Below are positions 44,551-61,565 of a stretch of 64,000 bases of DNA, piece by piece. Made by a program: the position numbers and the translations under genes. This DNA is from Candidatus Woesearchaeota archaeon CG10_big_fil_rev_8_21_14_0_10_45_16 (GTDB lineage: Archaea; Nanobdellota; Nanobdellia; Woesearchaeales; GW2011-AR9), in assembly GCA_002762785.1 (NCBI GenBank), contig PCXY01000005.1:456849-520848 (forward strand), given 5' to 3'. Position 1 is the stretch's first letter; each line of letters begins with the position of its first letter. The notes below the pieces were generated by a model. It saw only the letters and a program-made list of their open reading frames with translations, searched no databases and had not been told where the DNA came from.

Positions 44551-44595
44551 AAGCATAAGGGGAGCTTTACCCTTTATAAAACTTTATCTTATGTA

Positions 44596-44779
44596 AAAAT
44601 AGCCAGAAAACCACTGGCTTTAGTCTGTGGATGTCCACAGCAAAGCAACAACTTTGCTGGGACGCCCAAGAAGCATAAAAATCAATAAAGATTGATTTTT
44701 AGCTCCAAAAACAGATTGTTGTCTGTTTTTGGGAGTCGTTGCTTCTTTGTGCGAATGGCCTGACTTTTCTGGCTATTTT
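44596..44779. repeat. 184-bp inverted-repeat module with nested hairpins
   Basis: Perfect 15-bp arms AAAATAGCCAGAAAA (44596-44610) and TTTTCTGGCTATTTT (44765-44779) enclose four further hairpins: CTGTGG-ATGT-CCACAG (44625-44640), AGCAAAG/CTTTGCT (44639-44658), an 11-bp stem with AAAG loop (44676-44701) and CCAAAAACAGA/TCTGTTTTTGG (44705-44732). AAGAAGCA and TGCTTCTT (44669-44676, 44740-44747) can pair around the last two. No protein is encoded. It may be a structured RNA or a mobile palindromic element. Confidence 0.85.
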
Positions 44780-44785
44780 GCATCC

Positions 44786-44865
44786 TAAAAATGCGTGGTC
44801 AGAGAAACCGTCTTACCCCACTCTAAAAGACGGGGTTTGAAAAAAGACGCTTTCACGCATTTTTA
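44786..44865. repeat. 80-bp inverted-repeat module
   Basis: Perfect 12-bp arms TAAAAATGCGTG (44786-44797) and CACGCATTTTTA (44854-44865) enclose an inner stem AAACC-GTCTT (44805-44814) facing AAGAC-GGGGTTT (44827-44838) with two bulged bases. It begins 6 bp after the preceding module. Confidence 0.82.
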
Positions 44866-44870
44866 TGATG

Positions 44871-44946
44871 TCAGCTCTGAAGAAAATCTCTTCGAGGGGT
44901 CACTGCCTCTTACATCAATCTTTTTTCGACAGGTCTTCGCAGCTGA
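44871..44946. repeat. 76-bp inverted-repeat module
   Basis: Arms TCAGCT-ct-GAAGA (44871-44883) and TCTTC-gc-AGCTGA (44934-44946) pair with a 2-nt internal mismatch loop and enclose a GAGG/CCTC hairpin (about 44894-44909). It begins 5 bp after the previous module, giving three in a row over 351 bp. Nothing further is seen between here and the promoter of the next gene. Confidence 0.72.
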
Positions 44947-48126: not shown

Positions 48127-48215
48127 AGAAGACTTTGTAAAAAGGAATTTTAGGTAAAATAAAACTCTAAAAATCTCAAACTAAGCCAAAAATTCCGCCA
48201 TTTCAAATCCTCTTC

Positions 48216-48254
48216 AGAACTTTGCACATCAAAAAACCGATTATGCAAAGTTCT
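48216..48254. terminator. 11-bp stem-loop between convergent genes
   Basis: AGAACTTTGCA (48216-48226) and TGCAAAGTTCT (48244-48254) are perfect inverted repeats around a 17-nt A-rich loop, ending at the base next to the VTT gene stop. It could end transcription from either side. The remaining gap (48127-48215) is AT-rich with no gene. Confidence 0.55.
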
Positions 48255-48845
48255 CTAAAGAAGTTCTCCAGCTACCGGCCAGATGATGCCGGCGAAGTAG
48301 GCTAATATCGCATATTTGAGGACGAGCCCGATGGCGCTGATGGCGATCAATCTCCATAACTTATAACGCACCATGCCGGCCGCCACCGATATCACTGGTG
48401 ATGATAACGGCAGCAGGTTGAATGAGAAGATAGTCCAGTCACCGTACTTCTTGATCCTTTCTTTTACTTTCTCATAACGTTTCTCGCCGATCAAGTCGCT
48501 GATGATCTTACTGCTCATCAGGTAGCCAAAGCTATAGTTAAAGAATTGGGCGGCGATAGCTGTAGCGACGGCGAGGATAGCGATAGTCAATGGCGGATAG
48601 CCGGCGGCGATGAAAAATGGCACCAACGCTTCGACTGGCATCAATAAGAAGAAGATATATCCGGCAAAATTAAGGATGATGAATGAGCTGAGGTCTGGTC
48701 TTGCTTGTTGGAAGACCTGCTTTCCTAAAGTTGCTGAGATGAGGAAGACGACTAATCCTAATGAGACCAGACCGAGGATGGTCCTCTTCTTGATCTTGAT
48801 CCTGTCATGCAGGTGCGTTTTCAGGTCTTCGAATCTCTGGTTCAT
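48255..48845 (-). CDS. VTT/DedA-family membrane protein
   Basis: The 196-residue protein has a basic N-terminal tail, then the VTT (SNARE-associated/DedA) domain with FFIAAGYPPLTIAILAV, the re-entrant FNLLPLSSPVISVAAGM segment and five to six membrane segments. Family members move or flip lipids. The start lies about 29 nt from a TTTAAAAG box (48871-48878). Confidence 0.85.
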   Translation of the reverse strand: MNQRFEDLKTHLHDRIKIKKRTILGLVSLGLVVFLISATLGKQVFQQARPDLSSFIILNFAGYIFFLLMPVEALVPFFIAAGYPPLTIAILAVATAIAAQFFNYSFGYLMSSKIISDLIGEKRYEKVKERIKKYGDWTIFSFNLLPLSSPVISVAAGMVRYKLWRLIAISAIGLVLKYAILAYFAGIIWPVAGELL

Positions 48846-61226: not shown

Positions 61227-61565
61227 CGTACGTATTTAGTTGCGTTTCTTGTGAGCGCAGCACGGCGCGATTACGGGAGCATCTTTAAGTGAAATAAGCA
61301 GAAATCCTCTGGATTCGCTTAGAGAAGAAACCACTTCTCTGGCGCACTGATAAGATGGTTTTCTTATCGTGTGCATCCTGGGGATGCAAGAAAAGTGGAA
61401 TCTAGCACTTTTCTGCACAGAGATCAAATCTTCGTTTGATTTCTTGTGAATGCGAGTTATCACTCAGGGGATTTCCGCCGCTTCTCAGCATTTTCTTTAA
61501 TAGAATACTCGTCTCTCCCGTGCGCTTCGATGGGCGGCGCTCACCTACTTAACTAAATACGTACG
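61227..61565. mobile_element. 339-bp MITE-like element with 15-bp TIRs and 6-bp TSD
   Basis: Perfect terminal inverted repeats CGTACGTATTTAGTT (61227-61241) and AACTAAATACGTACG (61551-61565) are flanked on both sides by GAAGAA (61221-61226 and 61566-61571), as left by transposition. No protein is encoded. Inside are many stems: GTGAGCGC/GCGCTCAC (61251-61258, 61537-61544), GCACGG/CCGTGC, AGAGAAG/CTTCTCT, a 13-pair stem around GATAAGA/TCTTATC (61342-61374), GCATCC/GGATGC, AGAAAAGTG/CACTTTTCT (61389-61414) and ATCAAA-TCTTCG-TTTGAT. The element separates a kinase gene from the tRNA-Ile promoter. Confidence 0.75.

Follow-up and report, generated by a model that had tools for sequence, protein, structure and literature searches.

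Probable nested palindromic insertions in a Woesearchaeales genome, and a double-hairpin element that may take up an inverted copy of its target dinucleotide

Positions 44590-44946 of the DNA analysed here (64,000 nucleotides of contig PCXY01000005.1 of Candidatus Woesearchaeota archaeon CG10_big_fil_rev_8_21_14_0_10_45_16, hereafter the window) are very probably a stack of inserted DNA palindromes, and the double-hairpin elements (DHEs) to which one of them belongs are, with the same confidence, mobile elements that are non-autonomous and have a 2-nt step as their insertion site (Table 1). The stack falls into three modules. An A-element, made up of modules 1 and 2, appears to lie beside a relic of repeat family D, which accounts for module 3; a double hairpin occupies the loop of A-element hairpin 1, and a 60-nt DHE would then have inserted into that double hairpin's own loop. 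DHEs are dispersed, have exact empty sites, follow a w-w'-w rule and occur nested. With confidence that falls somewhat short of even, we propose that, in one DPANN family, a 60-nt double hairpin may acquire its 2-nt target in inverted form, in mid-element, at each insertion, which would yield nested, always self-complementary structures.

Table 1. Features of the window discussed in the text (positions are those of the window; hp, hairpin)
Feature	Position	Strand	Remarks
A-element copy (modules 1 and 2)	44590..44869	+	hairpin 1 44596-44779, junction GCATCC, hairpin 2 44786-44865; ends TATG...ATGAT
Level-1 double hairpin [TCC hp GGA][CGC hp TGCG]	44634..44753	+	follows GGATG within the hairpin 1 loop
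Level-2 DHE with flanks, AG-CA-hp1-G-CT-C-hp2-GG-AG	44672..44735	+	geometry scan; model match G000:C3:501520-501583
Innermost hairpin of module 2	44813..44845	-	inverted relative to other A-element copies seen (sequence comparison)
Family D relic, internally deleted, bulk of module 3	44874..44935	+	34-nt left end common to about 13 copies
Family E copy	61228-61564		ends GTACGTATTTAGTT...AACTAAATACGTAC; several hairpins and the second DHE
Second DHE, TG-CA-hp1-G-CA-C-hp2-TG-TG	61385..61448	+	geometry scan; model match G000:C3:518233-518296; inside family E

Double-hairpin elements and the w-w'-w rule

A DHE has the form w-CA-hp1-G-w'-C-hp2-TG-w, in which the 2-nt flank w is duplicated and w', between the hairpins, is its reverse complement, so that each hairpin stem extends into the flank. 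The stems are AT-rich and variable, CAACGA and AAACTA are the preferred loops, and the loops of hp1 and hp2 are reverse complements in type (CAACGA/TCGTTG), as are the element ends CA...TG. The w-w'-w form was read from a geometry scan for two stem-loops, each with a 10-bp stem and a 6-nt loop and separated by a 4-nt spacer (at most two mismatches per stem), that imposed nothing on flanks, loops or spacer. The first 12 finds obey the w-w'-w rule without exception, one of them having GG for TG; an initial reading with a 3-nt target gave way to the 2-nt rule once all geometry-selected examples had been tabulated.

Over 1.25 Mb of genomic stretches, the scan returned 100 contexts representing 69 independent insertions; much of this DNA had been chosen for matches to the covariance model described below, so that the yield per base gives no estimate of density, and the complementarity rule was not used in selection. 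CA is present in 67 of the 69 insertions, TG in 66, the duplication in 62 and the mirrored middle in 60, and both rules hold in 58. When the middles were permuted among elements, the mean was 13 matches and the maximum 24 in 2000 trials, compared with the 60 observed. The dinucleotide w is mostly TG, TA or CA, followed by TT, AG, AA and CG.

The genomes compared are metagenome-assembled, one per species, and many are incomplete. A covariance model built from the geometry finds, with w left unpaired, matched 45 of 49 family genomes at an E-value of 0.01, with up to 80 matches per genome (most palindromes being counted on both strands). At 1e-6, in a phylum-wide sample, 15 of the 23 genomes from the family had matches, and not one of the 170 genomes from elsewhere in the phylum did. 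Within the genomes searched, DHEs are thus restricted to one archaeal family. Viral contigs contained no match to two common DHE hairpins or to the end of the A-element.

Exact empty sites were recovered for several insertions (L032 vs. L058, 97.9%; L071 vs. L073, 98.2%; L180 vs. L172, 97.2%; and, within the same genome, L174 vs. L172, 98.6%). The level-2 DHE of the window, once removed together with one AG, leaves a sequence that aligns gaplessly to L009:4851-4992 (96.5% over 142 bp), and likewise to L047 and others. DHEs are found inside one another, in other repeats, in tRNA-like sequence and in a protein gene, where the element interrupts a frame of the Bro-N family that reads through 280 aa without the 62 nt and has uninterrupted homologues.

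Several further contexts were noted. A locus with tandem tRNA-like sequence (L081:1460-1880; G033:C197) carries a DHE in the D-arm region of one copy, the other copy being uninterrupted; a second DHE adjoins a tRNA-like copy on this contig, and a Y1 transposase gene lies just upstream (912-1346). In L130:1440-2695 (G019:C43), an A-rich stretch that resembles a template repeat from a diversity-generating retroelement contains a DHE and is situated upstream of a reverse transcriptase frame (RVT_1). A conserved segment of approximately 70 bp, possibly a small RNA, occurs in the window (48189-48259, minus strand), L017:24-95, L208:5345-5415 and L201:2712-2783, and is interrupted by a DHE in L206. 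Finally, a larger repeat in genome G001 (loci L151-L159), present in eight or more near-identical copies, contains a DHE whose middle is one base off (TT/TA/TT), indicating that the DHE was amplified there as a passenger.

Insertion and the origin of the middle dinucleotide

DHEs appear to spread by transposition, with w' possibly set by the target at insertion and a folded single strand presumably being what the enzyme recognises. Independent insertions whose hairpins differ at no more than 5 of 52 positions form 35 pairs; the middle differs in 24 of these, against a per-site divergence of 7.5% in the hairpins. Not all of these pairs are independent of one another, and AT-rich stems could converge. 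A fixed guide would change no faster than the rest of the element, and these comparisons therefore favour a middle that is reset at each insertion rather than a fixed one. In the simplest scheme with this outcome, the target would be cut with a 2-nt stagger that exposes w and w' as 3' overhangs; one hairpin would be joined to each 3' end, fold-back would fill exactly the two single-stranded bases, and the resulting complementary ends would anneal. Four insertions with an intact duplication and a middle that is one base off count against this fold-back scheme.

One candidate for moving DHEs is a Y1 transposase of the IS200/IS605 type acting in trans. No IS200/IS605 TnpA or TnpB was found in the window's genome, and Y1 transposases are present in 17 of the 49 family genomes. 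Of the 17 genomes that have at least 20 DHE matches, 7 contain a Y1 transposase, as do 10 of the 32 others, which, in a set with many incomplete genomes, is no clear association.

Such an enzyme could also account for the mirrored middle in another way, which we consider doubtful for DHEs. Here the middle dinucleotide would be a fixed guide of the IS200/IS605 type that base-pairs to both the target (left w) and the element's own right end (right w); Y1 TnpA would move single strands, and w-w'-w would reflect recognition instead of templated copying. One-base-off middles would then be tolerated mismatches, and the Y1 gene in G033 lies only a few hundred bases from two DHEs. The A-element would fit as well: as expected of a fixed guide, nearly every copy has AT for w, following TTAT (TTAT(G) stands to the left of nearly all copies, and the right end ATGAT also has AT), and the inner part of its hairpin 1 partially resembles TAGCCAGAAATCCCACTGCTTTAGCTGTGGGATGAATGGCG beside a Y1 transposase gene in the relative L090. 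Against this stand the near-identical hairpins with different middles in 24 of the 35 pairs, L140 and L205 having no hairpin difference at all, and the DHE-rich genomes G029, G068 and G001, in which no Y1 was found. The guide mechanism may apply above all to the A-element; resetting of the middle is the favoured reading for DHEs.

Composition of the intergenic stretch

The stretch lies between divergent genes, one running leftward from 44556 (weak CARDB match) and one rightward from 45032 (nucleotidyltransferase domain). The preliminary description of this DNA had reported three closed modules of 184, 80 and 76 bp joined by linkers of 5-6 nt, and this architecture is borne out, with linkers of 6 and 5 nt. 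The arms of module 1 (44596-44610/44765-44779) are 15 nt long and 100% complementary over a span of 184 bp, and those of module 2 (44781-44797/44854-44870) are 17 nt long with one mismatch (94%), the module spanning 80 bp from 44786 to 44865. The closing helix proposed for module 3 fares less well: its 13-nt arms (44871-44883/44934-44946; span 76 bp) have two mismatches (85%), and this helix is weak and partly coincidental, since the repeat relic in module 3 stops near 44935.

The window's own genome (1.18 Mb, 6 contigs) was searched with the stretch (63 matches at E-values up to 10), and both ends of modules 1 and 2 recur together as a unit running from TTATG to ATGAT. This A-element has five further copies in the genome, four of them complete and one divided between the ends of contigs C4 and C5, and ten more genera of the family contain relatives of it. 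A pattern for its 3' end matched 20 contigs in a search of 84,980 species genomes; each of these contigs bears the label Woesearchaeota, Nanoarchaeota or archaeon. Copies without nested insertions measure about 140-165 nt. Hairpin 1 has AT-rich closing arms and an inner hairpin of the CCATTGGCTTTAGCCAATGG type, and its sequence varies among genera, yet every copy folded has a closed stem. Hairpin 2 has two inner stems and terminates in ACGCATTTTTATGAT; across 15 copies from 9 genera, pairing is kept, and 8 of the 26 predicted pairs show compensatory changes (a double hairpin at the junction was removed by hand from row L070 of the alignment).

A-element copies differ by extra hairpin pairs in the loops and at the junction, and the window copy is one of these. 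The clearest insertions lie nested within module 1, where the preliminary description had missed them. The level-1 unit is absent from L012 and L053, where GGATG directly precedes AATGGC, and L009 and L047 have it without the inner DHE, which in the window occupies its loop; as a whole, the level-1 unit breaks the 2-nt rule. The earlier statement that there is no target duplication likewise does not hold, as AG flanks the level-2 DHE on both sides and AT stands at 44591-44592 and 44868-44869.

Family D, represented in module 3, has about 14 copies in the genome and terminal inverted repeats, a flanking duplication being doubtful when judged by eye. Intact copies are about 135-165 bp long and the window copy about 62 bp. 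The relic aligns to a short D copy (L023) with a score of 56, compared with a shuffled maximum of 28; its right end alone is weak, 8 of 500 shuffles being as good. Family E is a further repeat in the genome, and its copies outside the window contain an A-element or different double hairpins. One A-element sits inside a family E repeat of which other copies lack it. The ends of C5 and C4 (L011:1-66 and L014:1-71) both stop inside A-element copies within family E, and the assembly probably broke there at one nested palindrome.

The preliminary description had offered two explanations for the stretch. That each module is an independent palindromic insertion is very improbable. Palindromic insertions are indeed what we find, and module 3 is a different repeat; it is the separateness that fails, as modules 1 and 2 co-occur in most copies with the junction GCATCC followed by TAAAAATGCG, or close variants, and form one element.

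The other explanation, a single folded RNA, drew on the strength of the fold. Compared with dinucleotide shuffles, the 366 nt from 44590 to 44955 fold as RNA with -134.2 kcal/mol on the plus strand (z -8.4), with z -7.8 on the minus strand and, as DNA, with z -8.25, values reached by no shuffle in any of the three cases. Equally good folding of both strands is expected of a DNA palindrome and is no argument for RNA. The stems of the independent DHE insertions contain 1344 Watson-Crick, 5 G-T and 11 other pairs, and this near-absence of G-T pairs fits a DNA palindrome better than an RNA, as selection acting on RNA folding should allow more G-U pairs. A three-domain structured non-coding RNA is therefore the least probable reading, despite the strong fold and the compensatory changes in hairpin 2: modules 1 and 2 (five further sites in the genome) and module 3 (left end at about 13 other sites) are different dispersed repeats found apart, with copies in many relatives as well, and such scattering is what the preliminary description had itself named as refuting the RNA; hairpin content and orientation vary among copies, and a search of Rfam at gathering and relaxed thresholds gave no family in the region, only tRNAs elsewhere in the window reaching threshold. 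Single A-elements or DHEs may nevertheless be transcribed.

Relation to known elements and implications

To our knowledge, no mechanism has been given for the mobile double hairpins long familiar from fungal mitochondria. In Allomyces and Schizosaccharomyces, these elements consist of adjacent hairpins of about 30-60 nt that are dispersed and merge with each other (PMC10085805); in yeast, GC clusters have AG or ACT duplications on either side (PMC4478555). DHEs are likewise two adjacent hairpins, dispersed and inserting into one another; in contrast to the GC-rich mitochondrial elements, they are AT-rich and archaeal, and their mirrored middle dinucleotide is not described in either source (PMC10085805, PMC4478555). 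As a lead only, our own inspection of the printed sequence of yeast ACTCCTTCGGGGT clusters suggests that their first hairpin also looks closed by its flank.

REPINs, or REP doublets, are short non-autonomous dispersed units of two inverted hairpins with compensatory stem changes, and their movement in trans by the Y1 transposase TnpA_REP (RAYT) has been proposed (PMC3116915, PMC8266576). A DHE, too, unites two inverted copies of a hairpin unit in one repeat, but the tag GTAG/CGTC was not found at the foot of its hairpins, which reads wCA/Gw' with variable w, and no cognate Y1 (RAYT) was found in the window's genome. DHEs further differ in being archaeal, in having variable stems with preferred loops, and in their 2-nt duplication and mirrored middle. 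Of the two other repeats, the A-element may be compared with IS200/IS605 miniature elements for its hairpins, which partly resemble IS200/IS605-type ends, and for its conserved left border TTAT(G), but it has long outer inverted arms; a BLAST comparison with 15 Y1 loci yielded no autonomous copy sharing its ends and no full-length parent, only the partial similarity of hairpin 1 in L090. Compared with a classical MITE, family D has terminal inverted repeats and a doubtful target duplication, and DHEs have a 2-nt duplication but ends that are just CA/TG.

The best reading of these comparisons is that DHEs are mobile hairpins of the same general kind as REPINs and mitochondrial double hairpins, yet distinct by the mirrored dinucleotide. 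With neither the REPIN tag nor a cognate RAYT found, and differing from the mitochondrial elements in composition as well, they would constitute their own variant of double-hairpin elements. In the openly licensed literature (subscription literature being outside the search), we found no description of such elements in archaea or of the w-w'-w signature. DHEs would thus represent a prokaryotic counterpart of the mitochondrial double hairpins, present in dozens of genomes and with precise empty sites. The w-w'-w rule constrains how they insert, as any mechanism must explain the reverse complement of the target within the element. For these archaea, DHEs may explain folded, RNA-like intergenic segments and some contig breaks in assemblies, and they may serve as markers of recent movement.
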